26,632 bases of DNA from a virus (IMGVR_UViG_3300022198_004644:1-26632), one strand, 5' to 3'. Shown: positions 1,874 through 25,821, numbered from the stretch's first letter. Notes: generated from the letters alone by a model not told the origin. Numbers and translations are program-made.

Positions 1874-2297
1874 CGCCATCACGTTTGACGTGATCGGCAT
1901 GGAGGCCGCCACGCAAGGCAGCAAGCGCCACGTCGGCCACGGGATCATGCGCGAAACCAATCAACGCCTCCGCCCTTGGCGCTCTCTCGTCACCGACGCC
2001 GCACTAGCCACACAACTGCCTCTCATCAATCAGCCCGTCAGCATCTCCATCACCTTCCGCTTCCTTCGACCTAAAGGCCACTACAACAAATCCGGCCTCT
2101 CCCCTAAAGCTCCAGCCCATCTAACCTCCAAGCAAAAGGGCGACATCGACAAGCTCTCTCGTGCCATCCTTGATGCCCTCACTGGCAGCCTTCTTCAAGA
2201 CGATTCGCAGGTGGTGCAGCTATCTGCTCACAAGCGTTACTGCACGCCGCAAGAAAAACCTGGCGCGCTCATCACCATCATCCCGCTGGCAACCTAA
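1767..2297 (+). CDS. rusA: RusA-type Holliday junction resolvase (start uncertain)
   Basis: RusA enzymes cut four-way DNA junctions as dimers; in phages they resolve recombination or replication intermediates, often before packaging. The signature is clear: GDIDKLSRAILDAL (Asp126 and Asp128 from this start) followed by LQDDSQVVQLSAHKRY (Asp145, Asp146, Lys156), the acidic cluster and lysine of the family. The N-terminal strand ITFDVIG, then QGSKRHVG, is also typical. The family normally begins near that strand, so residues 1-38 (Ser/Pro rich, overlapping another small ORF) may not be translated; TTG 1821 or GTG 1890 are later candidates. The gene ends Ala-Thr-stop within a GGCAACCTAA element. 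Confidence 0.85.
   Translation: MAPSPQTLPPHSLQNAGGLSENNDASTLPPSSSAPNAITFDVIGMEAATQGSKRHVGHGIMRETNQRLRPWRSLVTDAALATQLPLINQPVSISITFRFLRPKGHYNKSGLSPKAPAHLTSKQKGDIDKLSRAILDALTGSLLQDDSQVVQLSAHKRYCTPQEKPGALITIIPLAT
2288..2297 (+). promoter_or_regulatory. Boundary element GGCAASYTAR, copy 1
   Basis: GGCAACCTAA, continuing AGC. It includes the stop codon of the resolvase and lies 19 bases before the ATG at 2317. One of nine exact copies in the window; candidate phage-specific promoter or module linker. Confidence 0.45.
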
Positions 2298-2316
2298 AGC
2301 AGCGGCACCCTGTGCC

Positions 2317-2631
2317 ATGGAACCCTGGTCCATCGTTGCAGAAGATCCCAAGACCGGCGAACCCTTTGGGCTCGTCCTACAACACGACGCTGATCCAGAA
2401 CTCGCCGAACACATCGCTCGCAACCTCCTCGCCACCTTCCGCCTCACTGGTGGCTACCTCCCCACCAGCGGCCCTAAATCCCTCAAAGGCCACTACCTCT
2501 TCCTCTACACCGTCTCGCCAGAACCCATCCCCCGCCTAGCCAGCATCTGGGCACACTCCTTCGCTGATGCCGAAGACAAGCTCAACATCCTCGCGGCAGA
2601 CGGCACACTCCTCATGCCCTCCTCCGGTTAA
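2317..2631 (+). CDS. Hypothetical protein, 104 aa
   Basis: I chose ATG 2317 because the longer frame would overlap the resolvase, and because the upstream part (Arg/Ser rich) looks like a shadow. The protein begins MEPWSIVAEDPKTGEPFGLV, contains AELAEHIARNLLATF as a helix and ends with a hydrophobic-acidic segment (ADAEDKLNILAADGTLL). The compact alpha/beta look suggests a single small domain. It sits between the resolvase and the small terminase, nine bases before the latter. No family is recognised. Confidence 0.6.
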   Translation: MEPWSIVAEDPKTGEPFGLVLQHDADPELAEHIARNLLATFRLTGGYLPTSGPKSLKGHYLFLYTVSPEPIPRLASIWAHSFADAEDKLNILAADGTLLMPSSG

Positions 2632-2640
2632 ACTCCGGCC

Positions 2641-2964
2641 ATGGCAAAAAAGAGCACTAACGTAGAAATTGATGAGCGGGTCAACGCCGTTTACGACCTG
2701 CTACTTCGTGCATACAGTCGCACCCAAATCGTTCGCTACTGTTCGGATCAGTGGAATGTAGGCGAACGTCAGGCCGAAAACTACATGGCTCGTGCACGCC
2801 AGTTGATGCAACTGGACGCCGAACTTGAACGCCCGCAATGGCTAGCCGCCGCAGTTGCACGCCTTGTTGAATACGAACGCCGAGCCTCTGAATCCAATCA
2901 GCTAGGCATCGCTCTCAAGGCCCTAGAAGACCAAGCCAAACTCCTGCGCTTTGAGATGTCGTGA
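2641..2964 (+). CDS. terS: Terminase small subunit (probable)
   Basis: 107 residues, helical throughout, directly upstream of the large terminase and overlapping it by four bases (GTGA at 2961-2964). The N-terminal part looks like a helix-turn-helix (VNAVYDLLLRAYSRTQIVRY, then WNVGERQAENYMARAR), as expected for the DNA-recognition domain of small terminases. The C-terminal half is a helical segment for oligomerisation. Small terminases bind the pac or cos site and hand the DNA to the large subunit. Position and fold agree; the sequence family itself is poorly conserved. Confidence 0.75.
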   Translation: MAKKSTNVEIDERVNAVYDLLLRAYSRTQIVRYCSDQWNVGERQAENYMARARQLMQLDAELERPQWLAAAVARLVEYERRASESNQLGIALKALEDQAKLLRFEMS

Positions 2965-4310
2965 GCCTGCTCACTGGCATCACTGAACCAACGCCGCTTC
3001 TCAGCTTCCTCGCCTCACCGTCGCAGCAGGACACCACAGACCTCTTGGCACGTATCCGCCAAGACCTGCACCCTGGCCAACTTGCCTTCGTCGAAGACCA
3101 GACCACTGAAATTCTCGGCATCTCCGCCGGCTACGGCGCCGGCAAAACCCGAGCGCTAGCCAGCAAGGCCGTTCACCTCGCTGCCAGCAATCAGGGCTTC
3201 ATCGGCATCGTCATGGAACCGACCGGCCCACTGATCCGCGACATCTGGCAGAACGACTTTGACGACTTCCTAGAGGCCTACGACATCCCCTACACGTTCC
3301 GCGCTTCACCGCTCCCGGAATACGTGTTGCACCTTCCCGGCGGTGATACCAAGATCCTGTGCCGCAGTTTTGAAAACTGGCAGCGCTGCATTGGCATCAA
3401 CGCCGCATGGTGCCTCTGCGATGAGATTGATACCGTCCCACCGTCTACGGCCAACAAAGCCTTCCCGAAGATCCTTGGCCGTCTCCGTGCCGGGAACGTC
3501 CGCCAGTTCGGTGCAGCCTCCACACCTGAAGGCTTCCGCTGGATGTGGCAAACCTTCGCTTCAGAAGAGACCAAGGAACGCGCTGATCGCAAGCTGATCA
3601 AGATGCGCACGGCAGACAACCCCTATCTGCCGCCGGACTTTATTGAGCGCCTCCAGGCCAACTACGACCCGAACCTGCTGCAGGCCTATCTCAACGGTGA
3701 GTTCGTCAGCCTCACCACCGGCCAGGTGTACGACCGCTTCAACCGTGAGCTTCACGTTCAGAGCGTGGACTGGGATCCAGAAGAGCCGATCCTGCTTGGC
3801 ATCGACTTCAACGTTGGCAACATGAGCGGCGTCTTAGCGGTGCGCCGTGGCCGTGAGCTGCACGTCTTTGACGAGATCACCGGTGCCCACGACACCGATG
3901 CCTTAGCCCAAGAAGCTCGCCGCCGTTACGGCAAAGCACGCATCCTTGGCTACCCCGATGCTTCCGGTGCTAACCGCAGCACCAATAGCTCCCGCAGCGA
4001 CATCGCCATCCTGGAGAGCTACGACATCAGCAACATGGCACCCTCAGCCAACCCACCGGTGCGCGACAGGATCGCAGCGGTACAAGCGCTGCTAGAGAAC
4101 GGCATGGCTGAACGCCGCCTGTTTGTCGATAAGCGCTGCAAGAAGCTGATCGAGTGCCTAGAGCTGCAGAGCTACAACGACAAGGGCGACCCTGACAAAG
4201 ACGCTGGGTACGACCACATGAACGATGCGCTCGGCTACATCGTCCACCGCTGCTTTGAAGTGGGGCGTGGCCACAGCGGTAAAGCAGTGCGCAATCTGCG
4301 CCTGTACTGA
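2961..4310 (+). CDS. terL: Terminase large subunit
   Basis: The 449-residue ATPase-nuclease motor that pumps DNA into the prohead. The GTG start overlaps the small subunit's TGA. Walker A is GYGAGKT (residues 57-63); Walker B is WCLCDE (150-155) with the catalytic Glu155; the coupling motif is GAAST (184-188). The C-terminal RNase H-like nuclease shows Asp282 (LGIDFNVG), Asp333 (GYPDASG) and Asp422 (DHMNDALGY). The length is normal for the family and all catalytic residues are present, so the gene looks functional. Confidence 0.95.
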   Translation: MSLLTGITEPTPLLSFLASPSQQDTTDLLARIRQDLHPGQLAFVEDQTTEILGISAGYGAGKTRALASKAVHLAASNQGFIGIVMEPTGPLIRDIWQNDFDDFLEAYDIPYTFRASPLPEYVLHLPGGDTKILCRSFENWQRCIGINAAWCLCDEIDTVPPSTANKAFPKILGRLRAGNVRQFGAASTPEGFRWMWQTFASEETKERADRKLIKMRTADNPYLPPDFIERLQANYDPNLLQAYLNGEFVSLTTGQVYDRFNRELHVQSVDWDPEEPILLGIDFNVGNMSGVLAVRRGRELHVFDEITGAHDTDALAQEARRRYGKARILGYPDASGANRSTNSSRSDIAILESYDISNMAPSANPPVRDRIAAVQALLENGMAERRLFVDKRCKKLIECLELQSYNDKGDPDKDAGYDHMNDALGYIVHRCFEVGRGHSGKAVRNLRLY

Positions 4311-4312
4311 TC

Positions 4313-4322
4313 GGAAACCTAT
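4313..4322 (+). promoter_or_regulatory. Variant boundary element GGAAACCTAT
   Basis: Two mismatches to GGCAASYTAR. It starts just after the terminase stop and lies 20 bases before ATG 4343. It is followed by AGGTAGATC; the CCTATAGG inside is a perfect palindrome. Confidence 0.3.
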
Positions 4323-4342
4323 AGGTAGATCAGTTGCCTGCC

Positions 4343-4843
4343 ATGGCCCGCACCTACAAACGTGACCAAAACGGTCGTTTCGCTGGTGGTGGCGGCGGTG
4401 GTAGCAAGGGTGGCGGTGGCGGCACCAGTACAAGGTCAAAAAACACTGCACGCGCCAATGACCTCAAGGCCAAAGGCACGACTGCTATCGGTGGTCGCGT
4501 CAAGGCCCAAGGCTTTTCAGGGCAAAAAGGTGCCCAGCAGCGTGCTGGTGGCCTTCGCAGTCAGTCCACCGTCAGCTTGAAGCTTGGCAAGAGCACGGCT
4601 GGAGCAGGTACTCGCTCCGCGTTGAGTGCCAATGCAGCGCAGGTTGGCAAAAGCCGCTCAAAAGCAGCTTCAAAAGGCACTGAAAAGATGGCCAAGGCGC
4701 CTGCAAATGCTGCCAAGGCTCGTTACAAGCAGCTCAGCGGAGAAGCTCGCAAATCGTCGCCTTTCCGTTCGGCATCTGATAACAGGAAGGCTGCTGGAGC
4801 CAAGCGCAGCCTCAATACAATGATCAAAAAGCGCGGTCGCTGA
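4343..4843 (+). CDS. Basic Gly/Lys/Ala-rich protein, 166 aa
   Basis: Start taken at ATG 4343; TTG 4334 is in frame. The N-terminus MARTYKRDQNGRFAGGGGGG carries a motif often seen at the start of phage virion proteins. It is followed by a second Gly run and then about 130 residues rich in Lys, Ala, Ser, Arg and Gln with almost no large hydrophobics, so it is probably disordered and DNA- or RNA-binding. It sits between terminase and portal, where internal head or decoration proteins may be found. No enzymatic motif is seen. Possible roles are DNA condensation or an ejected protein, both inference. Confidence 0.6.
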   Translation: MARTYKRDQNGRFAGGGGGGSKGGGGGTSTRSKNTARANDLKAKGTTAIGGRVKAQGFSGQKGAQQRAGGLRSQSTVSLKLGKSTAGAGTRSALSANAAQVGKSRSKAASKGTEKMAKAPANAAKARYKQLSGEARKSSPFRSASDNRKAAGAKRSLNTMIKKRGR

Positions 4844-4974
4844 TGAAATCACAAATCACTGCTGTTGGCCGGTTGCTTAAACCAGCCCTTGGTCAGCAGC
4901 AGTTGTTTAAGGTCATCTCTATCAAGCAAGATGGCACTAGCAAGGTCATTGTCAATAGGCCTTTGGCAACCTAA
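4843..4974 (+). CDS. Hypothetical protein, 43 aa
   Basis: The start shares a base with the previous stop (TGATG at 4841-4845), and the stop lies in a GGCAACCTAA element 11 bases before the portal start. The protein is small and basic, with a short beta-like pattern (QLFKVISIKQDGTSKVIVN). No family is recognised. Tight coupling supports expression. Confidence 0.5.
   Translation: MKSQITAVGRLLKPALGQQQLFKVISIKQDGTSKVIVNRPLAT
4965..4974 (+). promoter_or_regulatory. Boundary element GGCAASYTAR, copy 2
   Basis: GGCAACCTAA followed by AG. It contains the TAA of the 43-aa ORF and lies 11 bases before the portal GTG at 4986, the shortest spacing of the set. Fourteen bases (TGGCAACCTAAAG plus neighbours) are nearly identical to copy 1. 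Confidence 0.45.
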
Positions 4975-4985
4975 AGAAAAGGGCT

Positions 4986-6455
4986 GTGCACTTCAATCTC
5001 GCTGCCACTGAACTCAAGCCCGTCCTGTCCATTCAGGATCTCGGCGTTCACGATCCCGGCATCGCCTGGCAGCGGATGCAGCTCCGCTGGGAACTCATCG
5101 AAGAGCTGATCGGCGGCACGCTGCAGCTGCAAGCCGCAGGCCGCCGCTATCTGCCGCAGGAGCCCAAGGAATCGGACGAGAGCTATCTCGCACGTCTGCG
5201 CCGCAGCGTCTGCCCGCCGTACTACCAGCGCCTAGAGCAGATGCTGGCCGGCATGATCAGCCGCAAGCCAGTGCGGCTCGACAACGTTCCTGACCCTGTG
5301 CAGGAGCAGATGATGGACGTTGACCTGCAGGGCAATGACCTCAACGTCTACCTGCACAGCCTGGCCCGCACTTGTCTGCGCTACGGCCACGTTGGCGTGC
5401 TGGTGGACTTCCCTCGTGGTGATGAAGGTGATGACACACCGGTCACCGACTTTAACCGTCCCTACTGGGTGAGCTACAGCCCACGGGACATCCTCGGCTG
5501 GCGCACTGACGTGGTGCAAGGCACGCAGAAGCTGACGCAGCTGCGCCTGCTGGAGCGCGTCATCGTGCCATACGGCGAATACGGCGAAGAGGTCGTCGAA
5601 CAGGTGCGCGTGCTGACGCCCGGTGCGTTTCAGCTGTTCCGCAAGCAAGCCTCTCGCTCCCGCGACTGGGAGCTAATTAGCGAAGGCCAGACCACGCTCG
5701 ACGAGATCCCCTTTGCGGTCGCCTACTCCAACCGCATCGGCATCCTGGAATCCACCCCGCCGCTGGAAGAGGTCGCGCACCTCAACCTGCAGAGCTACCG
5801 CGTCAGCTCGGACCTCAGCAATCAGCTGCACATCGCTGCTGTGCCTCGCTTCCATCTCTACGGCGTGCCAGCTGAACTAGACGAGATCACTGCTGGCCCT
5901 GACTCCGCCATGGCGTTGCCCGTTGATTCACGGGCTGAGTTTGTAGAGCCGCAAGGCACTTCGTACAACTTCCAGTTCCAACAGCTGGACCGCATCGAAC
6001 GCCAGATCAATCAGCTGGGCCTGGCCGCTGTGATGGGTCAGAACATGACCAACCAAGCGGCAGAAGCCAAGGCCATTGACCGCAGCCAAGGTGATGCCGC
6101 CCTGATGACCGTGGCTCTTGGCCTGCAGGATCTGATCGACAACTGCCTGCGCTTCCACAGTGCCTTCCTCGGTCTGCCAAACAGCGGCAGCAGCATGGTC
6201 AACAACGACTTCGTGGCCCGCACGCTGGAGCCTGGCCATGTGGCCGAGCTAATCAAGCTGCGCCTCAACGGTGACATCACGCAGGAAACCCTGCTGATCC
6301 AGTTGGCCGATGGTGAGTGGCTCTACGACGATTTCAACGTCGATCAGGAAATTGAAGCCACCGCAGCGCAGCAGCAATCACGGCTGGATGCACAGGCTGC
6401 GCAGCTCGATGCAAACCTGCAACAACTTCCAGGGCAACCTAATCAGCAACCCTGA
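4986..6455 (+). CDS. Portal protein (DUF4055-like)
   Basis: A 489-residue protein in the standard position between terminase and scaffold/capsid. Portals form the dodecameric ring through which DNA enters and leaves the head. The N-terminal pattern (RYLPQEPKESDESYLARLRR, then a helix ending LAGMISRKP) and the central HVGVLVDFPR and YSPRDILGW segments agree with the DUF4055 portal group as I know it. The C-terminus is Gln/Ala rich and helical (EATAAQQQSRLDAQAAQL), like portal crown helices. Translation starts at GTG 4986; no ATG fits better. The end of the gene contains another copy of the boundary element. Confidence 0.85.
   Translation: MHFNLAATELKPVLSIQDLGVHDPGIAWQRMQLRWELIEELIGGTLQLQAAGRRYLPQEPKESDESYLARLRRSVCPPYYQRLEQMLAGMISRKPVRLDNVPDPVQEQMMDVDLQGNDLNVYLHSLARTCLRYGHVGVLVDFPRGDEGDDTPVTDFNRPYWVSYSPRDILGWRTDVVQGTQKLTQLRLLERVIVPYGEYGEEVVEQVRVLTPGAFQLFRKQASRSRDWELISEGQTTLDEIPFAVAYSNRIGILESTPPLEEVAHLNLQSYRVSSDLSNQLHIAAVPRFHLYGVPAELDEITAGPDSAMALPVDSRAEFVEPQGTSYNFQFQQLDRIERQINQLGLAAVMGQNMTNQAAEAKAIDRSQGDAALMTVALGLQDLIDNCLRFHSAFLGLPNSGSSMVNNDFVARTLEPGHVAELIKLRLNGDITQETLLIQLADGEWLYDDFNVDQEIEATAAQQQSRLDAQAAQLDANLQQLPGQPNQQP
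6433..6442 (+). promoter_or_regulatory. Boundary element GGCAASYTAR, copy 3
   Basis: GGCAACCTAA inside the last codons of the portal gene (not in the stop frame), 27 bases before the scaffold ATG at 6470. Confidence 0.4.
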
Positions 6456-6469
6456 GCCTGTGGCTCTAC

Positions 6470-7153
6470 ATGCCCGACAACGACACCGCTCCTGTGGAGC
6501 AGTCTGCAAACAACGCTGATCTGCAAGCCCTGCAAGCAGAACTCGATGCCATGCGCCGCAAAAATGCGGAGCTGCTGGACGAGAAGAAGAAGCTGGCCAA
6601 GAAGCTGCCTGAAGTTCCCGATGGGGTTGATGTCCAAGAACTGCTGGACTTCAAGCGCAAGGTGGAGCAGCAGCAGCTGGAATCCAAAGGCAAGTACGAC
6701 GAAGCGCTCAAAACCTACGAGCAGCAGTACCGCGAACGTGAATCGCAGCTGCAGGCTCGTGTCGCAGAGTTAGAAGCCGAGAACCGTGAACTCAAGGTGA
6801 TCGGTCCTGCGGTCGCTGCTCTTGCCGACACCGTGCACGATCCCGATGAGGTAATCAGGTTGCGGCTTAAGCCTGATCAGATTGAGCGCGAAGCAGACGG
6901 CAGCGTCGTCGTCGTGGACGGCTACCAGCGCACACCGATCAGCGACTGGGCACGCACCAGCCTGCCGCAGTACCGCCTGAAGGCACCTAAACCTGCAGGC
7001 ACCGGTGCACCGGTTGGCCGCAGCAGCGCTGAACTACCTGCCGGTAGCAAAAACCCCTTCTCGCGTGAGCACTACAACCTCACCGAGCAGGCGCGGATCT
7101 ACAAAACCGATCCTGAACTCTACGCACGCTTAAAAGCTGCAGCTGGTAAGTAA
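6470..7153 (+). CDS. Scaffold-like protein, 227 aa
   Basis: Lies immediately upstream of the major capsid gene, the usual place for a scaffolding protein. Residues 15-115 are a long charged coiled coil (LQALQAELDAMRRKNAEL, later QLQARVAELEAENREL). A linker rich in Pro and Gly follows, then a short C-terminal helical segment (REHYNLTEQARIYKTDPELY). Scaffolds are typically elongated and helical with a small capsid-binding C-terminus, which this matches. No protease motif is seen, so the scaffold is either released or cut by an enzyme not in this window. Confidence 0.75.
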   Translation: MPDNDTAPVEQSANNADLQALQAELDAMRRKNAELLDEKKKLAKKLPEVPDGVDVQELLDFKRKVEQQQLESKGKYDEALKTYEQQYRERESQLQARVAELEAENRELKVIGPAVAALADTVHDPDEVIRLRLKPDQIEREADGSVVVVDGYQRTPISDWARTSLPQYRLKAPKPAGTGAPVGRSSAELPAGSKNPFSREHYNLTEQARIYKTDPELYARLKAAAGK

Positions 7154-7247
7154 CTCCCTTTGGCATACTTACAGGCAAGAGGGAAGGCTGTGCTGACCCA
7201 TTGGCCTGTGGCCGCACCACAAACCACTCTCTTCAGGAGAAAAGACC
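7154..7247. other. Leader of the major capsid gene
   Basis: A 94-base gap, one of the longer ones in the structural block. It holds an imperfect copy of the boundary element (GGCATACTTA at 7162-7171), a small hairpin GGCC-TGT-GGCC, and the ribosome binding site at 7235-7240. The 7-bp inverted repeat GTAAGTA/TACTTAC (7146-7172) has no T-run after it. Confidence 0.4.
7235..7240 (+). promoter_or_regulatory. Strong ribosome binding site of the capsid gene
   Basis: AGGAGA seven bases before ATG 7248. Many other genes in the window lack a clear Shine-Dalgarno sequence, so this fits the high expression needed for a major capsid protein. Confidence 0.75.
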
Positions 7248-8303: not shown

Positions 8304-8314
8304 GGCTGATCTTC

Positions 8315-9870: not shown

Positions 9871-9873
9871 GCG

Positions 9874-9883
9874 GGCAAGCTAG
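9874..9883 (+). promoter_or_regulatory. Boundary element GGCAASYTAR, copy 4
   Basis: GGCAAGCTAG in the 31-base gap after the gp7-like gene, 18 bases before ATG 9902. GCGGCAAGGG follows and may serve as ribosome binding site. Confidence 0.45.
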
Positions 9884-9901
9884 CGGCAAGGGTGTGCCGC
9901 T

Positions 9902-10459
9902 ATGACCGTCACTGTCGTTGCTACTGCTGGCGCTGCTGATGCCAACAGCTATCTGACCGTGGCGGCTGCTGATGCCTTGGCTGATTTGTACCTCGGTACC
10001 CTCAGCTGGTCATCGGCCACGACCGACAACAAAGGTCGTGCGCTGATCATGGCCACGCGCTATCTCGATGAGTTGAGCTACATCGGCACCAAAGCCACAT
10101 CCACACAAGCACTGCTCTGGCCTCGCAGCGAAGCGCAATGTGGTGACTGGAGCTATACCAGCAGCGAGATTCCCAAGCAGGTCAAGCAGGCTACGTTTGA
10201 CCTCGCCGAATACCTGCTGGGTGATGGTGATGCGCTCTTGGGCGGTGGTGCCTCCAGTCGTGAGCTGATCCCTGGCATCCCTAACGCCAACCTGAAGCGT
10301 GCAAAGGTCGATGTCATTGATGTGGAGTTCAAAGACGTTGGACAAGCTGAAAGCAAGAACGCTCTGAACCTGCTGCCACATCTGATCAAAGTGCTTGGCT
10401 GTCTATGCCTGAGCGGTGCTTCCGCATCGGTTGGAACTATTCGCGTGGTGCGAAGTTAG
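9902..10459 (+). CDS. Head-tail connector, DnaT-like family
   Basis: The first residues (ATAGAADANSYLTVAAADAL) and ALIMATRYLDELSY followed by TQALLWPRSEA match the phage group annotated as putative DnaT-like, which are in fact head-tail adaptor proteins placed between head and tail genes. The length of 185 residues is usual. It would sit under the portal ring. The C-terminal 40 residues (LIKVLGCLCLSGASASVG) are more hydrophobic than expected and may be strain-specific. Confidence 0.75.
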   Translation: MTVTVVATAGAADANSYLTVAAADALADLYLGTLSWSSATTDNKGRALIMATRYLDELSYIGTKATSTQALLWPRSEAQCGDWSYTSSEIPKQVKQATFDLAEYLLGDGDALLGGGASSRELIPGIPNANLKRAKVDVIDVEFKDVGQAESKNALNLLPHLIKVLGCLCLSGASASVGTIRVVRS

Positions 10460-10462
10460 ACT

Positions 10463-11056
10463 ATGGCCATGCGCGTTGCTTCTGGCCAGTTATCACTCTT
10501 CGCTGCACCACCTGCTGCAGTTGAAAAGAAGCGCACGCTGAACCATCTCGCCAAGCCGCTGACCCGTGAGGAGCAGCGACGCTTTGGCCGCATGTATGCC
10601 GAAAACATCGGATTGATCCGCATGTTCGGCGGGAAGCTTGGCCGCAAATACGGCCATTGCATGGCCCGTGAGGACATTTACAGTTGCGTCGACTTGGCCT
10701 TCATCAAGGCCTGCAAAGCATGGGATCCGGCTAAGGGAAAACTGAGCACGATCTTCTGGACGTTTGCTCAAGGCGAAGTGCTGCACTTCCTGCGCGGTAG
10801 CAACTGGACAATCAAGGCCAGCCATAAGGTGCGCCTGCTGGGTAACCAAGCGCGGCGACTGATGGCCTTGGGTTGGCAGACCCCTGCCATCTGCAAGGAA
10901 TTGAGCTGCAGCCGTCAAGATCTCAAGGATGCCTTGCTAGCAACGGCTGGCATCGCGCACGATGTCAAAGGCTTTGATCTGCACGTCTGCCCGCGCCTGA
11001 CACCAATGGAGGTGCTTGAAGCGGAAGAAGAACTAGAGCTAGCAAGGGCAAGCTAA
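10463..11056 (+). CDS. Sigma70 region-2 protein (phage-encoded sigma factor candidate)
   Basis: 197 residues. Residues 43-112 match sigma70 region 2: MYAENIGLIRMFGGKLGRKY, then REDIYSCVDLAFIKACKAWD and KGKLSTIFWTFAQGEVLHFL, closely following the family pattern (E)DL..G..GL..A...FDP.KG.FST.A..IR..I...LR. Residues 137-160 (GWQTPAICKELSCSRQDLKDAL) form a helix-turn-helix suited to region 4. The N-terminus is short and basic and the C-terminus acidic. It would bind host core RNA polymerase and redirect it to phage promoters. Only three bases separate it from the connector stop, so it is made together with structural proteins. The gene ends Ala-Ser-stop in a boundary element. Confidence 0.8.
   Translation: MAMRVASGQLSLFAAPPAAVEKKRTLNHLAKPLTREEQRRFGRMYAENIGLIRMFGGKLGRKYGHCMAREDIYSCVDLAFIKACKAWDPAKGKLSTIFWTFAQGEVLHFLRGSNWTIKASHKVRLLGNQARRLMALGWQTPAICKELSCSRQDLKDALLATAGIAHDVKGFDLHVCPRLTPMEVLEAEEELELARAS
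11047..11056 (+). promoter_or_regulatory. Boundary element GGCAASYTAR, copy 5
   Basis: GGCAAGCTAA containing the stop of the sigma-like gene, 23 bases before GTG 11080. The bases after it can fold (GCTAAG 11052-11057 with CTTAGC 11072-11077, and AGGCA/TGCCT inside). Confidence 0.45.
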
Positions 11057-11079
11057 GGCATCTGCCTTTCGCTTAGCCA

Positions 11080-11829
11080 GTGGCTGGAACCTACTTTGCA
11101 GCGTTGGACCTCCGCTTCTGGGTGAAGCTGGGCACCACCGCATCTGCCTCGCCAACAGACAACACCTCAATGACTGAGGTGCTGTCGCTCACCAATACCT
11201 CCATCTCGGTGAGTTCTGATACCCAGCAGGTGCTGGATTATCAGTCGGACTTTGGCTTCACCAGCCAGATCGTGACTGGCAACAGCTACACGATCAGCTG
11301 CGCCCTAAATCTCGACCCCACCTCTGAGGGTTACAAGATCCTCAAGCGTGCTGCACAGGATTCCGCGCAGAACGTGGCGGTGCAGTGGTATCGCGAACTG
11401 CCTCTGGTGGGCAGCAGCAACGCCGACCCACAGGTGGACGCTGGTGTGGCGTTCGTATCTAACTGGAGCGAATCGCTGGAGGCTGGTTCGATTGCTAGCT
11501 GCAGCTTCGACCTGCTGGGCTATGGCGCACCGAAGAACTACCAGCAGGGTGATCCTGTTGCCACGCTGACCGTCACCAGCGGCGGCGCCGGCCTGGCTGC
11601 TGCAGCGTCTGCTGTGGCCCTGGTGCCTCTGACCCCTGCCAACGGCAATGGTTCCGGTAAGGGTGCCACTGTGACCACCACTGTGGACGGCTCCGGTGTA
11701 ATCCAGACTGTCACGGTTGTTTCTGGTGGCAACAACTACAAGGTCGGCGATACTCTCACCATCCTGGATGCTTCGGTTTACGGCACTGGCGACACTGCTG
11801 CTGTACTGACCGTCGCTACGGTTGCCTGA
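11080..11829 (+). CDS. Major tail (tube) protein with C-terminal extension
   Basis: 249 residues from GTG 11080. Residues 1-155 have the alternating strand pattern of tail tube proteins (WVKLGTTASASPTDNTSMTE, then TGNSYTISCALNLDPTSEGY and SNWSESLEAGSIASCSFDLL). Residues from about 160 on are a separate, Gly/Thr/Val-rich unit (VVSGGNNYKVGDTLTILDAS), resembling small beta domains displayed on virions. The position, just before the tape measure if the reversed cassette is ignored, supports the call. A strong terminator follows, so this gene ends its transcript. Confidence 0.75.
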   Translation: MAGTYFAALDLRFWVKLGTTASASPTDNTSMTEVLSLTNTSISVSSDTQQVLDYQSDFGFTSQIVTGNSYTISCALNLDPTSEGYKILKRAAQDSAQNVAVQWYRELPLVGSSNADPQVDAGVAFVSNWSESLEAGSIASCSFDLLGYGAPKNYQQGDPVATLTVTSGGAGLAAAASAVALVPLTPANGNGSGKGATVTTTVDGSGVIQTVTVVSGGNNYKVGDTLTILDASVYGTGDTAAVLTVATVA

Positions 11830-11838: not shown

Positions 11839-11857
11839 GCTGTCGGGTGAGTCATGA

Positions 11858-11888
11858 AGCGGCCAGCTGGAGATGGCCGCTTTTTTTT
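11858..11888 (+). terminator. Intrinsic terminator after the tail tube gene
   Basis: A perfect 8-bp stem AGCGGCCA (11858-11865) / TGGCCGCT (11874-11881) with an 8-base loop, followed directly by T residues to 11888. It is the only strong rho-independent terminator I found. On the opposite strand the hairpin is not followed by a T-run, so it acts mainly on plus-strand transcription and shields the convergent cassette. Confidence 0.9.
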
Positions 11889-11890
11889 GC

Positions 11891-12738: not shown

Positions 12739-12748
12739 CTAGCTTCCC
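12739..12748 (-). promoter_or_regulatory. Boundary element on the minus strand (GGGAAGCTAG)
   Basis: Read leftward, GGGAAGCTAG then ATC and the ATG of the minus-strand cassette. One mismatch to the consensus. It is the only near-match I saw on this strand, and it precedes the only reversed structural genes. Confidence 0.35.
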
Positions 12749-12755: not shown

Positions 12756-12765
12756 GGCAAGCTAG
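12756..12765 (+). promoter_or_regulatory. Boundary element GGCAASYTAR, copy 6
   Basis: GGCAAGCTAG, then ATCTAAAG, 20 bases before the tape measure GTG at 12786. It forms the right arm of the palindrome at 12736-12768. Confidence 0.45.
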
Positions 12766-18333: not shown

Positions 18334-18349
18334 ACCCTGACTTGAGCCG

Positions 18350-19793: not shown

Positions 19794-19795
19794 CG

Positions 19796-19805
19796 GGCAA
19801 CTTAG
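19796..19805 (+). promoter_or_regulatory. Boundary element GGCAASYTAR, copy 7
   Basis: GGCAACTTAG, then GC, just after the stop of the 66-aa ORF and 25 bases before ATG 19831. Confidence 0.45.
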
Positions 19806-19830
19806 GCAAACCCTGTCGCGTTGTCGGTAG

Positions 19831-20253
19831 ATGGCCGAGTTCACCAAGTTCCACTCATTTGTGGAGGCGCTGGCAGAGGGTAAGCACAACTTTCAGACTG
19901 CCACGCTGAAGGTGATGCTCACTAACACCCAACCCAGCGCCAGCGATAGCGTCGTAGCCGACATCACTGAGATCGCCGCAGGCAACGGTTACACCGCCGG
20001 TGGCAATAGTGCCGGCACGGTCAGCAGCAGCCAGACCAGCGGCACCTACCGCCTGATCTGCAACGACCCGACCGCGTGGACCGCCAGCGGCGGCAGCATT
20101 GGACCGTTTCGCTGGGCTGTGCTTTACGACGACAGTGCCACCAATGACGAGCTGGTGGGCTTCTGGGATTACGGCGTAGCGACGACGCTTAACAGCGGCG
20201 AAAGCTTCGTGGTCGATTTTGACCCGACCACCGGCGTCCTCTCGATTGCCTGA
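19831..20253 (+). CDS. Conserved phage virion protein, 140 aa (copy A of a tandem pair)
   Basis: The N-terminus EFTKFHSFVEALAEGKHNFQ and ATLKVMLTNTQPSASDSVVA, then ITEIAAGNGYTAGG, follow a pattern common in phage structural operons, usually of unknown function and placed with tail genes. The rest is beta-rich (GPFRWAVLYDDSATNDELVG). The next gene has the same segment order, so the two look like diverged duplicates. Only two bases lie between them. Confidence 0.55.
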   Translation: MAEFTKFHSFVEALAEGKHNFQTATLKVMLTNTQPSASDSVVADITEIAAGNGYTAGGNSAGTVSSSQTSGTYRLICNDPTAWTASGGSIGPFRWAVLYDDSATNDELVGFWDYGVATTLNSGESFVVDFDPTTGVLSIA

Positions 20254-20255
20254 TC

Positions 20256-20654
20256 ATGGCTTCTGTACTGACGATTACGCCAAAAGAACTGGAGCGCCAG
20301 GCCGTCGCCCTGTTTGAAGGCCGCACCTACAAGATCTTTCTGGCTGTCAGGGGCAGCCTGACGGTGGCTTCTACCGCTGCGGAGTGGGAAGCAGCGGAAC
20401 TGAGCGGCAACGGCTATGCCGCTGTGACCGGCACCATCGGCACCGGCAGCTACAACGCTGGCACCACCCGCTACGAGCTACCAAACATCACCGCCCAATT
20501 CACCGCCAGCGGTGCGGGTTATACCTACGACACGATGTGCCTCAAGATCGGCACCGAGCTGTATCTGCACAGCATCAACGTCGAAACGCCGTCGATCACG
20601 TTGGCCGCCGGTCAAAGCAAGAGCTATGTGCTGCAGCTGGCGCAGGATGACTGA
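20256..20654 (+). CDS. Virion protein, 132 aa (copy B of the tandem pair)
   Basis: Follows copy A with two bases between. Shared order: a strand after a basic turn (GRTYKIFLAVRGSLTVAST against HNFQTATLKVMLTNTQPSAS), E-LSGNGYAAVTG against E-IAAGNGYTAGG, then a WTASGG/FTASGAG block, and a C-terminal strand with ITLAAGQS against TTLNSGES. Identity is low, so this is an old duplication or a fold-level match. Its stop shares a base with the next ATG. Confidence 0.5.
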   Translation: MASVLTITPKELERQAVALFEGRTYKIFLAVRGSLTVASTAAEWEAAELSGNGYAAVTGTIGTGSYNAGTTRYELPNITAQFTASGAGYTYDTMCLKIGTELYLHSINVETPSITLAAGQSKSYVLQLAQDD

Positions 20655-21979
20655 TGGCCACCACCATCAACGTCACGAGCGGCGATGGTGATGGCGGGCT
20701 GTTGCGCCGTGACCGCGAAGCGCGTGATGCGCAGCGCTACCGCGATCTAGTCCAGCGGCGTGATGCACGGGTGCGCGGTCGCGCTGAAGCCGCGCAGCAG
20801 CAACCGGAGCAGGTGGCGCAATACGGCCGATCCGCCCCTGCTGTTAGGCGTGCGGGTCTACGCCCTGCGGCCCATCGCTTTGGCGGCAAGTACGGCGCAC
20901 TGCAGCTGGTGATCCGCGCTGCACGTTCGTCAGAAACAACTGTGCGAGACACAGGCCGCGTGAATGGTGACTCTTTGAGCCTGCTGTACGCCGAACGCTT
21001 GAACCGCCCGGTCACCGAGTTTGTGCTGGACGACGTGCAGTTCAACTTGGCGTCGGTGTTCACAGAGACCTACAGCAGCCGCAGCGTTGATCTAATTGAG
21101 AGGTACATGGATGCCAGCTTTGATGGCACCACCTTTTACATGGTGGAGGTCATCACCGCTGAGCTGTTTGCCAGCATCGGCAATGTGGCCCCAGAGCAAA
21201 CGCAGACATCGCGTTATGCGGCACAAGCCTTTGGTTTTCTGCGCACCGTCAACATCAGCACAGGTGTACTCAGCAGCACTGCAGTGGATTTAGGGCTCTT
21301 TGTCGCTACACGCACCAGTGTCTACTCAGCGTCCTCACCACAAAACCCGCTCTTCTTCACGGTCGTCAGCAACACAGAGACAGTTGACTACACACCTGGC
21401 GACTACAACGGCACTGAAGCGATGCTTACCGCTTTGGCACCAGATGAACCCCACCACCAGCTGGTGGCTTGGTACGAAGAACCGGCGCAGATCATCCCGT
21501 TTCTATTTGACTTGACGCAGCCACATGATGTCTTCCCATACCCGCTGGGGGTTGACTATGCCGATGGTGTGACCGATGCGCTCTACGACCTGCTGTACCT
21601 ACCCATCTTTGATGCAAGCAGAGACGAGTTCTACGACTTCGTACCAATCCACACCGCCCATCAAAACTTAGACCGCTTTGCTGTTGGTGCCGTCGTGCCT
21701 ACCATCACCGGCACCCAGTACCGCCTGGAAAGCCTGCCGATTGAGCCTGGCCAAGCGTGGGACACCACAGAAGACAACTTCAGGATCTCACCAGCACCTC
21801 AGCCGTTGTGGACCAGCTGGCCGCGCATCATCGGCAACATGATCACGATCAATGGCTTTGAAGGCTATATGTCAGGCGCCCAAGCGTTGCCAAGTAGCGG
21901 CGGCACTAACAATGCCGCAGCGCACTACCAATGGTTCTCCAACCGGCGCTATGGCGCTCCTTACATCATCCGCCGCTAA
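20654..21979 (+). CDS. Virion protein of unknown function, 441 aa
   Basis: TGATG-coupled to copy B. Residues 15-75 are a highly charged, Arg/Gln-rich helix (LLRRDREARDAQRYRDLVQR) ending in a basic linker; the remaining 360 residues are a balanced globular domain rich in aromatic and acidic residues (RYMDASFDGTTFYMVEVITA; DALYDLLYLPIFDASRDEFY). This layout, a charged stalk followed by a globular head, is typical of adsorption or tail-associated proteins. No family is recognised. Confidence 0.5.
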   Translation: MATTINVTSGDGDGGLLRRDREARDAQRYRDLVQRRDARVRGRAEAAQQQPEQVAQYGRSAPAVRRAGLRPAAHRFGGKYGALQLVIRAARSSETTVRDTGRVNGDSLSLLYAERLNRPVTEFVLDDVQFNLASVFTETYSSRSVDLIERYMDASFDGTTFYMVEVITAELFASIGNVAPEQTQTSRYAAQAFGFLRTVNISTGVLSSTAVDLGLFVATRTSVYSASSPQNPLFFTVVSNTETVDYTPGDYNGTEAMLTALAPDEPHHQLVAWYEEPAQIIPFLFDLTQPHDVFPYPLGVDYADGVTDALYDLLYLPIFDASRDEFYDFVPIHTAHQNLDRFAVGAVVPTITGTQYRLESLPIEPGQAWDTTEDNFRISPAPQPLWTSWPRIIGNMITINGFEGYMSGAQALPSSGGTNNAAAHYQWFSNRRYGAPYIIRR

Positions 21980-22111
21980 ATGATGACCCCCGATCAACTC
22001 CTGCAGCAGCTCAAACTGCTCACCAGCGCCAACCGTCATGCGTTCCTACGCAGCACGGCAGAGCGCAAGTTGCAAGAAAAGCTATCTATGCCTAAACCAC
22101 CGGCAAGCTAG
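21980..22111 (+). CDS. Hypothetical protein, 43 aa
   Basis: ATG 21980 follows directly on the previous stop codon; the stop TAG 22109-22111 forms part of a GGCAAGCTAG element. The peptide is helical and basic (DQLLQQLKLLTSANRHAFLR, then STAERKLQEKLSM). It resembles the 43-aa ORF before the portal in size and Ala-Ser/Thr ending, not in sequence. Function unknown. Confidence 0.5.
   Translation: MMTPDQLLQQLKLLTSANRHAFLRSTAERKLQEKLSMPKPPAS
22102..22111 (+). promoter_or_regulatory. Boundary element GGCAASYTAR, copy 8
   Basis: GGCAAGCTAG containing the stop of the 43-aa ORF, 17 bases before ATG 22129. No Shine-Dalgarno sequence is visible in the remaining leader. Confidence 0.45.
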
Positions 22112-22128
22112 GTTCGCTTCTTACTTAT

Positions 22129-22701
22129 ATGCCTCTGCTCCCGTTCATCAAGCCACCGGCACCCACCACCACCCGCCGGATCGGTACTGAACACAGCGGC
22201 ATCATCGAAATGGAAGAGCGCGGTGGCCTCACCGTTGGTGAGAGCGCCGTGATCGCAGAACTGCTGGCCGATCAACAGAGCAGCTTCGTCACCGGCGCCC
22301 AGATTGCAGATGCGATTGCCAAGGAGGAAGAGATCAGCCTGAGCGAAGCGTTCAGCATCATCGAAGGTGCCATCACCGGCAGCGATCAAGAGGATGCGGC
22401 CAAGGAGATCCGCCTCCGTCATGCCGAGCGCATTGCCCAGGTGGCCAAGTGCTACAGCGCTGCTGGGCAGCGCAACATGGAAGCCTCCGTTACAGCGCTC
22501 GTGCAAAGCCGGCTGAGCCTGCCGGACTGGACGATGGACGACACCCGCAAGCTGGATCGAGTTCTCTTCCAAGGCATCTGGCAGCTGGTGCTCGACGAGC
22601 AAGCCGCTGAAGAGATGCCCAGTGAGCCGGTGACGGAAGAGGAGCTGGGAAAGCCGCGAGCGGCCAGTGGCAAAAGCCGCAAACCGACTGGGCCGCAATA
22701 G
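22129..22701 (+). CDS. Tail assembly chaperone candidate, short form (190 aa)
   Basis: This is the product when ribosomes stay in frame. Helical protein with GTEHSGIIEMEERGGLTVGE near the start and SLSEAFSIIEGAITGSDQED in the middle, ending in a Lys/Arg/Pro-rich tail. The reason for the chaperone call is the frameshift site near its end and the overlapping second frame, the layout of lambda G/GT. In most phages this pair lies just before the tape measure; here it lies about 7 kb after it, so another frameshifted virion protein is the alternative. Start ATG 22129, after boundary element copy 8. Confidence 0.6.
   Translation: MPLLPFIKPPAPTTTRRIGTEHSGIIEMEERGGLTVGESAVIAELLADQQSSFVTGAQIADAIAKEEEISLSEAFSIIEGAITGSDQEDAAKEIRLRHAERIAQVAKCYSAAGQRNMEASVTALVQSRLSLPDWTMDDTRKLDRVLFQGIWQLVLDEQAAEEMPSEPVTEEELGKPRAASGKSRKPTGPQ
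22647..22653 (+). promoter_or_regulatory. -1 ribosomal frameshift site GGGAAAG
   Basis: The heptamer GGGAAAG is in the correct phase, G GGA AAG, with GGA at 22648-22650. It is the same slippery sequence as in lambda G-T. The -1 frame is closed upstream by TGA 22623-22625 and then open to 23303; the zero frame stops at 22701. The site therefore lies inside the 75-base overlap of the two frames. A small GCCG/CGGC hairpin follows immediately. Confidence 0.75.
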
Positions 22702-23303
22702 CGGCTGATCTGTTTCACCACTACCCCGGCACCTACAGGCGAGAGCTGTTTCACGCGGAGCTGCGGCGTGAGGTGCTGCAGATGTGGCGTGAACTGCGGC
22801 GCATCCAACGGGAGCAGGCGGCCCTAGCCGAGCTGCCCACCGCCCAGTTGATGGCGCTCACCGCCAACATCAACCGCGACAGCAAGAAGCAAAGCAAGCC
22901 GTTCACCGCCAACGACTTTGCGTTGTTCCAAGGTGAGCGGGAAGATGACAAGCCGTTCCGCCCCGATGTAGCGGCCGTCGCGTTGGCATTGCGGCACGAG
23001 GGCAAAGCCCCGCCGATGCTGCTCACCTGCTGGCAGCAGGTGTTGGCGAGCGCCACGGAACACTGCAAGCCTCCGAGCCCACGCGCTTGGCACAGCGACG
23101 ACGATGCGGTGTGGGTGCTGGCCCCTGCATTTGAGGGCAGCAACGTGCGCGGCGGATTGGTGCTTGTTCGTGGGCCGATCAGCGGCAGCGTCTTACTGCG
23201 CGACCTGGATCGACCATTGTTGACCCACCGCGTCGAACTACCCAAGCGCAAGGGGTTTGGCTGGATCGAAGCTGGCCTGCTGTTGCTCGGACCGGAAAAT
23301 TAG
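22653..23303 (+). CDS. -1 frame extension of the tail chaperone (fusion 22129-22653 + 22653-23303, about 391 aa)
   Basis: After slipping, translation continues ASGQWQKPQTDWAAIAADLF, then HHYPGTYRRELFHAELRREV and on to residue 391. The joined region is dense in aromatic residues and helices, as in T-type chaperone domains, and lacks a start codon for its first 40 codons, so frameshifting is the natural way to make it. Independent starts at GTG 22773 or ATG 22782 would lose this conserved-looking part. The far C-terminus (GWIEAGLLLLGPEN) reaches a TAG within a GGAAAATTAG variant element. Confidence 0.65.
   Translation, partial: AASGQWQKPQTDWAAIAADLFHHYPGTYRRELFHAELRREVLQMWRELRRIQREQAALAELPTAQLMALTANINRDSKKQSKPFTANDFALFQGEREDDKPFRPDVAAVALALRHEGKAPPMLLTCWQQVLASATEHCKPPSPRAWHSDDDAVWVLAPAFEGSNVRGGLVLVRGPISGSVLLRDLDRPLLTHRVELPKRKGFGWIEAGLLLLGPEN
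23294..23303 (+). promoter_or_regulatory. Variant boundary element GGAAAATTAG
   Basis: Contains the stop of the frameshifted gene and ends three bases before ATG 23307. Two or three mismatches to the consensus, and the spacing is too short for a promoter of this gene. Confidence 0.2.
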
Positions 23304-23306
23304 GGC

Positions 23307-23708
23307 ATGAACTTGCTGTCACTACGCACCGAGCTGGAAACCACGCTGGTGGACGTGCTGGGTGTGTATGTGCTGGCCAACGGCACCAAGACCCCAGCGA
23401 TCAGCGTGCGCGGGGAAGGCGAGAGCCTGCCGGCCAACACGACCGTGCATGGTTTGGAGTGCGTGATCCTGCGCGAACCGGAGCTGGTGCCGATCCGCCA
23501 GTACAGCCAAGAGCAAGCCTTCAGCCGTTGGACGCTGTATCTGGTGGACTGGAGCGGTGACGCCAGCCTGCAGGATGTGGCGGGGCGGCTGCTTTGGGCC
23601 TACCCCAACAGCAACGCGGTGAAGATCAACGTGCCGCGTGGTGCAGGCCCCAGATCGCAGATGCGCGTGGACATCCAGACCAACCCAGACCGCGTACCGG
23701 AGCTGTAG
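23307..23708 (+). CDS. Possible tail terminator / minor tail protein, 133 aa
   Basis: Begins MNLLSLRTELETTLVDVLGV, a helix as seen at the start of many tail terminators, then strands (PAISVRGEGESLPAN; GLECVILREPELVPI) and FSRWTLYLVDWSGDASLQDV, and a closing GPRSQMRVDIQ strand. The alpha/beta order and length suit tail terminator (gpU-like) proteins, and its place next to the chaperone candidate agrees, as these two often travel together. Similarity is not strong enough to be certain. Confidence 0.4.
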   Translation: MNLLSLRTELETTLVDVLGVYVLANGTKTPAISVRGEGESLPANTTVHGLECVILREPELVPIRQYSQEQAFSRWTLYLVDWSGDASLQDVAGRLLWAYPNSNAVKINVPRGAGPRSQMRVDIQTNPDRVPEL

Positions 23709-23726
23709 GCACCGGCAACTTTGGGT

Positions 23727-24077
23727 ATGGCAATCACCCCAGCGAGCTACAACATCAGGCCGCAGCGCAGGGCCGATTACGAGCTGCTGGTGCAGTTCAA
23801 GGATTCCACGGGGACCGGCATCGACATTGACGGTTGGACCGTGTTGGCGCAGGTGTGGGACAAGGCACGCACAACCAAATATGGCGACTTCACCGTGAGC
23901 GAGGTGGATTACAGCACCGGCCAGGTGAAGCTCACCTTGCCTCATGCTGTGACCGCTGCGTTACCGCTCGGTGATGACGCTCGCTACGACGTGATGCTCG
24001 TCAACTTGACAGGGTTGCGTGAGTATTACCTTGAGGGAATTGTGCGGCCCAGCGAGGGCTTCACGACACCGGCATAG
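23727..24077 (+). CDS. Tail fibre / baseplate N-terminal domain protein (BppU-like), 116 aa
   Basis: ATG 23727 is preferred over TTG 23721. The order of segments, DYELLVQFKDSTGTGIDIDG, WTVLAQVWDK, FTVSEVDYSTGQVKLTLP and YDVMLVNLTGLREYYLEGIV, is the one found in small phage domains that attach fibres to the tail (BppU N-terminal type). Here it stands alone, without a fused receptor-binding part. GGCAACTTTG (23714-23723), a variant boundary element, precedes it directly. Confidence 0.6.
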   Translation: MAITPASYNIRPQRRADYELLVQFKDSTGTGIDIDGWTVLAQVWDKARTTKYGDFTVSEVDYSTGQVKLTLPHAVTAALPLGDDARYDVMLVNLTGLREYYLEGIVRPSEGFTTPA

Positions 24078-24079
24078 CG

Positions 24080-24367
24080 ATGGACAACTCCGTTGAGGTG
24101 ATCAGCACCGGCCAGGTCGTCATCACCGAGGTTGAGGAACAGGTTGTAGAGGTCACTGCCCCAGCAGCACCGGCTGCGGTGGTGGTGGCAACTGCTGGCC
24201 CGCAGGGTCCACCGCTGATCAGTGTGATCACAATGAGCGACCTCACGGACGTGGAGGTTGCGGCGCCAGTGGAGGGAAGCGTCTTGTACTACGACAGCAC
24301 GACGGATCGCTGGAGAGGCAACGACATCAATACGCTCACCACACTGACTGACGGCGGCAACTTCTAA
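24080..24367 (+). CDS. Short tail fibre connector, 95 aa
   Basis: Two bases after the previous gene. Residues 1-35 are Val/Glu-rich strands, followed by a short collagen-like GPQGPP and then LTDVEVAAPVEGSVLYYDST with DRWRG, a repeat unit common in phage fibres. It ends TTLTDGGNF, close to the DGGTF ending of other fibre proteins. It probably forms part of a trimeric fibre with its neighbours. Confidence 0.6.
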   Translation: MDNSVEVISTGQVVITEVEEQVVEVTAPAAPAAVVVATAGPQGPPLISVITMSDLTDVEVAAPVEGSVLYYDSTTDRWRGNDINTLTTLTDGGNF

Positions 24368-24377
24368 GCCGGCCAGC

Positions 24378-24387
24378 GGAAACCTAG
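24378..24387 (+). promoter_or_regulatory. Variant boundary element GGAAACCTAG
   Basis: One mismatch to GGCAASYTAR. It lies 27 bases before GTG 24415. AGGCG (24386-24390) can pair with CGCCT (24404-24408) in the leader. Confidence 0.35.
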
Positions 24388-24414
24388 GCGCAACGCAGTG
24401 TCTCGCCTGTAACC

Positions 24415-25248
24415 GTGGCCAACACCATCCGCATTAAGCGCTCAACGGGCAGCAGCGCACCCGTGAGCCTGGCCAATGCGGAGTTGGCCTTTTCTGAGGG
24501 CAATGCTGTCCTGCATTACGGCACCGGCACAGGCGGTGCAGGCGGTAGCGCCACCAGCATCATCAAGATCGGCGGTGCGGGTGCATTTGTCACCCTAGAC
24601 AGCGCTCAGACAATCAGCGGTAACAAGACCTTCACTGGCACGGTTGACCTCAGTGGTGCCACGCTGAACGGCAATGCCACCTTTGGTAGCAACGTCACGA
24701 TCACCGGCGACCTTGTTGTCTCGGGCACGACCACAACGGTCAACTCCACCACGGTGGACGTGGCCGATAAGAACATCACCTTGGGCAATGTCGCTACGCC
24801 CACGGATGTCACGGCTGACGGTGGTGGCATCTCGCTGTTAGGCGCCAGCACAAAGACCTTTGCGTGGCTCAATGCCACTGACAGCTGGACCTCTAGCGAG
24901 GACATTGACCTGGCCAGCGGCAAGGTCTACCGCGTCAATGGCAACACGGTCCTGAGCGGCAGCAGCCTGGGCAGCGGTGTCACCGGCTCCAGCCTCACAA
25001 GCGTCGGCACGCTCACCGGCGGTGTGTGGAACGCCAGCGTGATTGGTGTGCAGTACGGCGGCACCGGCGTGGCCACGTTGACCGGGCTGGTGAAGGGCAA
25101 CGGCACCAGCGCTTTCAGTGCAGCAGTGGCTGGCACGGATTACCTCAGCCCCAGTTCCGAAATAGATGGAGGAAGCTACCTATGGATCTTCGGTCTGACT
25201 GGGTTGGTGCTCAGTGCATTGATGAGTGCTGCCTCGGTGGCGTGCTGA
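24415..25248 (+). CDS. Tail fibre protein, abnormal C-terminus
   Basis: 277 residues from GTG 24415. N-terminus MANTIRIKRSTGSSAPVSLA is a fibre attachment domain. The body consists of triple-stranded beta repeats (SGNKTFTGTVDLSGATLNGN; GDLVVSGTTTTVNSTTVDVA; GVQYGGTGVATLTGLVKGNG). Fibres of this kind commonly end in DGGTF; here the sequence reaches SPSSEIDGG and then turns into a hydrophobic tail (SYLWIFGLTGLVLSALMSAA and SVAC) unlike the rest. This tail overlaps the end of the convergent HNH gene by 38 bases, so insertion of that gene probably changed the fibre's end. Confidence 0.75.
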   Translation: MANTIRIKRSTGSSAPVSLANAELAFSEGNAVLHYGTGTGGAGGSATSIIKIGGAGAFVTLDSAQTISGNKTFTGTVDLSGATLNGNATFGSNVTITGDLVVSGTTTTVNSTTVDVADKNITLGNVATPTDVTADGGGISLLGASTKTFAWLNATDSWTSSEDIDLASGKVYRVNGNTVLSGSSLGSGVTGSSLTSVGTLTGGVWNASVIGVQYGGTGVATLTGLVKGNGTSAFSAAVAGTDYLSPSSEIDGGSYLWIFGLTGLVLSALMSAASVAC

Positions 25249-25729
25249 TATGTGCCCAGCGGATCCCTCGGCGGATCAAGCTGATTGTTGATACAGAGAC
25301 ATTGAACCGGCGTGCCAACTCCACACCGGTCATGCCTTGAGCTAGCCCCTGTTTGATCTGGGCTGCTTGCTCTTCAGTCAGCTTGCTGGTTCCCACCTCA
25401 GATCCACGTTTGAGTGGAGGCGGCACGTGAGTGCCGTGGGAAAGCATGTCTTGAAAGTTCTGAAGCTGGGTGCCGGCATATAGATGCGCCGGGTTGCAGC
25501 ACCTGCGATTGCCGCACCGATGGTTTACCTGTTTACCAGCGGGGTCACCCTTAAACAGCTTGTAAGCAAACCGATGAGCGGTTTGCACCTTCTTGTCCCA
25601 AAACAACTGCCCATAGCCAGGCCCGCCGACGCTGAGTTTCCAAGTCCAGCAGGCATCCAATGAAGGAATGTCTACGCGCTGCAAGAAATACTGGATCGCA
25701 GCAGCTGGATCCGATACTCTTTGGCTCAT
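25211..25729 (-). CDS. HNH homing endonuclease with C-terminal helix-turn-helix
   Basis: 172 residues from ATG 25729, chosen because AGAGGA lies six bases before it; a longer frame starts at 25816. The N-terminal part has CWTWKLSVGGPGYGQLFW, TAHRFAYKLF and QVNHRCGNRRCCNPAHLYAG: His70, Asn79 and His82 of the HNH_3-type fold with Cys72, Cys77 and Cys78. Residues 115-157 (LTEEQAAQIKQGLAQGMTGV, then ELARRFNVSVSTISLIRRG) are a DNA-binding helix-turn-helix. It is free-standing and antisense between fibre genes, as mobile endonucleases often are. The last dozen residues read into the fibre gene. Confidence 0.85.
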   Translation of the reverse strand: MSQRVSDPAAAIQYFLQRVDIPSLDACWTWKLSVGGPGYGQLFWDKKVQTAHRFAYKLFKGDPAGKQVNHRCGNRRCCNPAHLYAGTQLQNFQDMLSHGTHVPPPLKRGSEVGTSKLTEEQAAQIKQGLAQGMTGVELARRFNVSVSTISLIRRGIRWAHISTPPRQHSSMH

Positions 25730-25735
25730 CAGCCG

Positions 25736-25741
25736 TCCTCT
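25736..25741 (-). promoter_or_regulatory. Ribosome binding site of the HNH gene
   Basis: AGAGGA on the minus strand, six bases before ATG 25729. It decides this start over the in-frame codon at 25816. Confidence 0.65.
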
Positions 25742-25811
25742 AACACGGTTGGTCACGGGGTAGGAGCTGACACTCGCTATCCCACACCTATTTTGCCAAG
25801 CCTGTGAGAGG

Positions 25812-25821
25812 GGCAACTTAG
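25812..25821 (+). promoter_or_regulatory. Boundary element GGCAASYTAR, copy 9
   Basis: GGCAACTTAG, then GTC, 33 bases before ATG 25855. The leader after it can fold (GTCC...GGAC around GGCTA-GA-TAGCC). Confidence 0.45.

Follow-up and report, generated by a model that had tools for sequence, protein, structure and literature searches.

A probable single-box late promoter and its candidate reader, a small sigma-like factor, in a cyanosiphovirus

To our knowledge, little has been established about how cyanosiphoviruses control their late genes, and a few described phage sigma factors offer the closest comparison for the locus analyzed here, a 26,632-nucleotide (nt) fragment of a cyanosiphovirus record (IMGVR_UViG_3300022198_004644:1-26632, hereafter the window, at its full length) in which a ten-base element, GGCAASYTAR, recurs before gene starts and a small sigma-like gene lies at 10463-11056. 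Gp36 of phiEco32, a sigma factor without region 4, serves middle and late genes through one box, tAATGTAtA, with transcription starting 6-9 base pairs (bp) away (PMC8948821). Gp55 of T4 is a very small sigma with region-2 homology that uses a −10-like element only and bears a clamp-binding peptide on a linker (PMC2988020, PMC7892883). In phage 7-11, the gene for gp47 sits deep in the late cluster, with several late promoters and a proposed positive feedback (PMC8948821). The report on cyanophage P-SS2, itself a cyanosiphovirus, places an alternative group 3 sigma beside terL among the packaging genes, and Sullivan and colleagues there leave the regulon of that sigma open (PMC2784084).

The locus shares features with each of these systems. 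It is like phiEco32 by description, in that a region-4-less phage sigma accompanies a single box, and differs in the sequence of that box and in host, which for phiEco32 is E. coli. It shares with T4 a very small sigma with region-2 homology and a predicted clamp-type peptide, and its one box, if a promoter, would likewise be of the −10 type; T4, however, has its own clamp, gp45, a co-activator, gp33, and a C-terminal peptide in gp55, whereas here the peptide is N-terminal and of the bacterial beta-clamp type, and we identified no co-activator. As in phage 7-11, the sigma gene lies deep in a late cluster, although gp47 has a region 4 and a bipartite promoter, GTAAtg-16-aCTA (PMC8948821). The small sigma aligns to that of P-SS2 only weakly (27% identity over 102 amino acids, E 3e-3), and the latter has no QLxLF at its N-terminus. 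The cyanosiphovirus assignment follows from the window terminase and its identity to those of Synechococcus phage S-H1 (73%), KBS-S-2A (70%), and MED4-117 and its kin (65%). A longer record, G001 (40,962 bases), is of the same virus, matching 26,573 of the 26,632 window bases.

Copies of the element and their surroundings

Scanning both strands of the window recovered nine exact copies of GGCAASYTAR, all on the plus strand, compared with a mean of 0.38 and a maximum of 2 in 100 dinucleotide shuffles scanned in the same way. All lie 11-33 nt before a start codon, as the original prediction had it: GGCAACCTAA at 2288-2297 (19 nt before the gene at 2317), 4965-4974 (11 nt before the portal gene), and 6433-6442 (27 nt before the scaffold gene); GGCAAGCTAG at 9874-9883 (18 nt before the head-tail adaptor gene Ad1, a spacing that relatives keep), 12756-12765 (20 nt before the tape-measure gene), and 22102-22111 (17 nt before the gene at 22129); GGCAAGCTAA at 11047-11056 (23 nt before the tail gene at 11080, and covering the final codons of the sigma gene together with its stop); and GGCAACTTAG at 19796-19805 (25 nt before the gene at 19831) and 25812-25821 (33 nt before the gene at 25855). 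The pattern had been picked after the data were seen, and we therefore added an unsupervised motif search of 36 upstream regions; this put the same motif first, as GGCAAcCTAg, with a log-likelihood ratio of 74.7 versus 28-41 in ten shuffles.

The variants proposed earlier are also real, namely GGAAACCTAT at 4313-4322 (plus strand, 20 nt before the gene at 4343), GGAAACCTAG at 24378-24387 (plus strand, 27 nt before the gene at 24415), and GGGAAGCTAG at 12739-12748 on the minus strand, with a 3-nt gap to the ATG of gene 12735-12340 on that strand. Further plus-strand copies had been missed: GGAAAATTAG at 23294-23303, separated by 3 nt from the ATG at 23307; a weak and tentative GCGAAGTTAG at 10450-10459, 3 nt ahead of the sigma-gene ATG and overlapping the stop of the gene upstream; and a degenerate, partly inferred copy, GGCATACTTA at 7162-7171, 76 nt ahead of the major capsid gene. 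In L178 and its relatives, GGCAAACTAG occupies the orthologous position of this last copy. The placement at gene boundaries holds, with the amendment that such positions are not always non-coding: the copies at 2288 and 11047 include the stop codon of the upstream gene, and that at 6433 falls within the last portal codons. We rejected a coding explanation (a conserved protein end) because the stop-codon overlaps fall in different frames; at 11047-11056, it is the element sequence that dictates the last residues of the sigma (AS, AN, or AT in relatives).

The G001 record holds 14 copies of GGMAASYTAD, all at gene boundaries among late genes and none in the roughly 11-kilobase (kb) early block; one GGGAACCTAG variant lies on the early strand, ahead of a small gene. 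Many copies inside genes, which the original prediction had named as a finding that would speak against it, are thus not what G001 contains. The motif keeps to one strand in near relatives, and sigma-gene loci totaling 511 kb, which overlap in part, contain 183 sense and 5 antisense copies versus 9 and 2 for a reversed-pattern control. The core reads GGMAASYTAR in the window and roughly GGVAAVYTAR, then G-rich and A-rich bases, family-wide; an alignment of 60 non-redundant sites (flanks <60% identical) gives GGMAASYTAD followed by an A-rich stretch, with no second, −35-like box upstream. Four cultured relatives do not have the motif in the same form above background, and a de novo search of sigma-less relatives did not recover a motif of the GGCAASYTAR type; in S-H1 and KBS-S-2A it returned other, low-complexity motifs that scored somewhat above six shuffles. 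Motif copies also border gene insertions, both between portal and scaffold genes (G002 versus G001) and at window gene 4343-4843, which G003 lacks, as would be expected if cassettes bring their own promoters, and terminator-type hairpins directly precede some copies in relatives.

Spacing to the start codon is constrained at its lower edge. A start lies within 45 nt of 91 of 109 non-redundant sites, most at 17-23 nt, with element-to-start gaps of 3-34 nt and a mode of 18-20. The shortest class, of eight non-redundant sites, has a gap of exactly 3 nt, placing ATG at +4, and sites with longer leaders favor A at +4 to +6 past the element (46-61% of them). These two features together suggest an RNA start some 4-6 nt past the element, somewhat nearer to it than the 7-10 bases proposed originally. 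Finally, the 50-bp divergent gap between the minus-strand gene 12735 and the tape-measure gene contains one copy facing each of the two, and a strong intrinsic terminator lies upstream of this gap at 11856-11883 (plus strand).

A small sigma-like factor that accompanies the element

The gene at 10463-11056 (plus strand) was overlooked by the original prediction, as was the clamp-motif-like peptide that it encodes, both within the span described. Its 197-residue product has sigma region 2 at about residues 35-112, region-3-like helices at about residues 121-160, and no region 4. It matches PHROG 351 (sigma factor; E 2.9e-10), and a profile of 23 relatives matches RpoH (E 1.5e-6), SigB (2.8e-5), and FliA (7.9e-5) over regions 2-3, in alignments that stop before region 4; the small sigma covers PHROG profile positions 487-625, versus 498-730 for a larger phage sigma. 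AlphaFold models reached a mean predicted local distance difference test score of 66 at first and 75 with a deeper alignment, and with both models fold searches (Foldseek, PDB) returned sigma factors, with SigE region 2 at template modeling (TM) scores of 0.78 and 0.80 by target length. Judged by these profiles and models, the homology and predicted fold of region 2 of the sigma-70 family, group 3-like, are present and region 4 is absent. Region 4 in other sigmas is the reader of the −35 box (PMC8948821), and the lack of such a box at the element fits a sigma-like protein without it. T4 gp55 is absent among the matches listed in the profile and fold searches, in which no direct comparison with gp55 was made. 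Across 50,697 phage records nothing came closer than the weak P-SS2 match, with no other isolated phage, and 62 pattern matches in bacterial genomes yielded no confirmed small sigma.

Occurrence of the motif follows that of this gene. Among contigs covering the Ad1 region, boundary sites number 3.15 per 10 kb in the 40 with the sigma gene and 0.19 per 10 kb in the 10 without it. The sigma-bearing contigs span 27-100% TerL identity to the window (27-28% in L119, L121, L146, and L154, 51% in L178, and about 60% in L134 and L143; motifs are present in each), whereas sigma-less relatives covering Ad1 are at 65-73% and have few or no motifs. Because the pairing holds while TerL varies, motif and sigma travel together independently of the terminase. 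Moreover, in a clade whose sigma is about 50% identical, these boundaries carry a motif that has drifted to GGCAAACTAG, a form recovered de novo in L178. If the sigma reads the motif, the sigma of the L178 clade should favor GGCAAACTAG over GGCAACCTAG; sigma and motif make up a concrete candidate pair, of which dozens of variants exist in nature.

We consider it very probable that the element is a promoter and likely that the small sigma reads it; as a whole, a single-box late promoter read by a small phage sigma is the probable explanation. The element would then be the recognition site of phage-specific late promoters made of one −10-type box and no −35 box, at which host RNA polymerase with the small sigma would initiate about 4-6 nt past the box, so that leaders would measure roughly 5-30 nt and the messages of a few genes would be leaderless. 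The late region would be transcribed as short overlapping units, including two that diverge from the 50-bp gap, and the sigma gene, lying within the late cluster it would serve, could make its own synthesis self-reinforcing after first read-through. Of the options offered by the original prediction, a phage-specific late promoter is well supported by the sigma co-occurrence, the opposed pair, and the spacing.

Competing explanations

Several observations weigh against a late promoter read by the small sigma. The contigs compared are related and the rank test ignores kinship, so that its p-value is not independent evidence, and sigma and motif share ancestry, which makes their co-occurrence partly inheritance; L014 has the sigma and no boundary site by the same criterion. 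About five of the eight sites in the 3-nt class are orthologues of one minus-strand gene, and the major capsid gene, expected to need strong late expression, has a degenerate copy only. The sigma homology is remote, with a Pfam region 2 match below cut-off, and the AlphaFold models have low-confidence tails and a predicted TM score <0.5. An activator or repressor could also bind the same sites.

A late promoter could alternatively be read by a host sigma or by the larger sigma70-like protein of the phage, perhaps aided by a further activator, while the small sigma has another role; we regard this as unlikely. G001, G003, G004, and G010 do carry the gene for the larger sigma as well, but it recurs in relatives where motif copies are few or lacking (G015, G016, and KBS-S-2A), and an occurrence with and without the motif, which tracks the small sigma instead, makes the larger protein a poor candidate reader. 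The element is unlike −35/−10 host promoters, and host sigma70-like promoter matches in the window are not above chance. A search for a T7-like single-subunit RNA polymerase (PF00940) gave no match in nine related records, in which the control also matched nowhere.

Stoperator-like sites, known from cluster A mycobacteriophages, at which a bound repressor halts elongation during lysogeny, would account for much of the anatomy. Stoperators number more than 20, lie in many cases in short intergenic spaces, and are oriented with transcription (PMC9283540), and the copies described here are likewise asymmetric, oriented with transcription, and placed in short intergenic spaces. G001 also carries a serine integrase-like gene (L085, 7529-8965, minus strand; phrog_95, E 1.6e-58), which suggests temperate ancestry or lifestyle. 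We nonetheless judge this explanation decidedly improbable: it leaves unexplained the link to the sigma, the restriction to late genes, the 3-nt minimum, and the late RNA starts after terminators, and no dedicated repressor was recognized among ten G001 proteins scanned.

The other options of the original prediction, an RNA processing site and a linker for module exchange, are very improbable. Copies do flank gene insertions between relatives, yet neither option gives a reason for the sigma co-occurrence, the strand, the opposed copies in the divergent gap, or the 3-nt edge in spacing, and ten bases are short for homologous exchange. A translation start-associated sequence (SAS), as in cluster K mycobacteriophages, has the slimmest chance, for although start codons follow the copies on the sense strand, the SAS of cluster K are placed within 3-7 nt of the start and include AGGAG (PMC3203893), whereas the gaps here peak far beyond that range and there is no AGGAG or Shine-Dalgarno core.

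A predicted clamp-binding peptide and further features

If a late promoter is read by the small sigma, the N-terminus of that protein points to a possible further layer of control. Codons 9-13 (10487-10501, plus strand) encode QLSLF, a predicted beta-clamp-binding peptide by the published consensus, QLxLF (PMC4549789) or QL[S/D]LF (PMC3716654). The pattern Q[LM]x[LF][FL] is found at the same place in 48 of 51 distinct sigma sequences, many of which are close relatives, in the forms QLSLF, QLDFF, QLSFF, QLSFL, QLCLF, QLQLF, QLDLF, QLALF, QMDLF, QLLLF, and QLNLF, and Q9 and L10 are at least 90% conserved in 23 aligned sequences. Residues 1-30 are modeled with low confidence, placing the QLxLF in a predicted unstructured segment. 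Counting against the peptide, the remaining three sigmas have QLSML or QLSLP instead, and QLxLF is short, with loose matches in 5 of 120 long reading frames of G001. A clamp-like gene (DNA polymerase III beta type) is present in the sigma-less G015, G016, and S-H1 (L081), which are complete or long relatives, and is absent from the sigma-bearing records tested, a pattern that would fit use of the host clamp and proves nothing.

Docking of this peptide on the clamp is a serious possibility that falls somewhat short of an even chance. Held a shade more tentatively is the wider proposal that a siphovirus late sigma is tethered by the host beta sliding clamp, such that single-box late promoters would fire preferentially on replicating phage DNA and late transcription would be tied to replication. 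Such a tether would follow T4-like logic with different parts. Going by the literature searched, it would be new outside T4-like phages, and it is a possible second case, beyond the T4 family, of late transcription coupled to the clamp.

Other features were noted in passing. No tRNAs were found in the 41-kb record G001. At G010:39372 (minus strand), and at the corresponding position of G004, the motif recurs about 400 nt beyond the gene for the larger sigma, with a terminator-like hairpin some 25-50 nt further on, so that a very short RNA is possible. Rfam assigns window 472-552 (plus strand) to sRNA-Xcc1 (RF02221; 56.4 bits versus a gathering score of 53, E 8.3e-08), and a minus-strand frame at 25211-25816, within the tail region, has similarity to HNH endonucleases and helix-turn-helix proteins. 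Finally, the leader of the major capsid gene (window about 7162-7247; also L057, L081, L083, and L178) contains small hairpins, one or two in number, whose loop is of the YUGYG type; their stems vary in sequence and stay paired in many relatives whose capsids are 38-100% identical, including cultured S-H1 and MED4-184, and they are possibly a structured RNA element.

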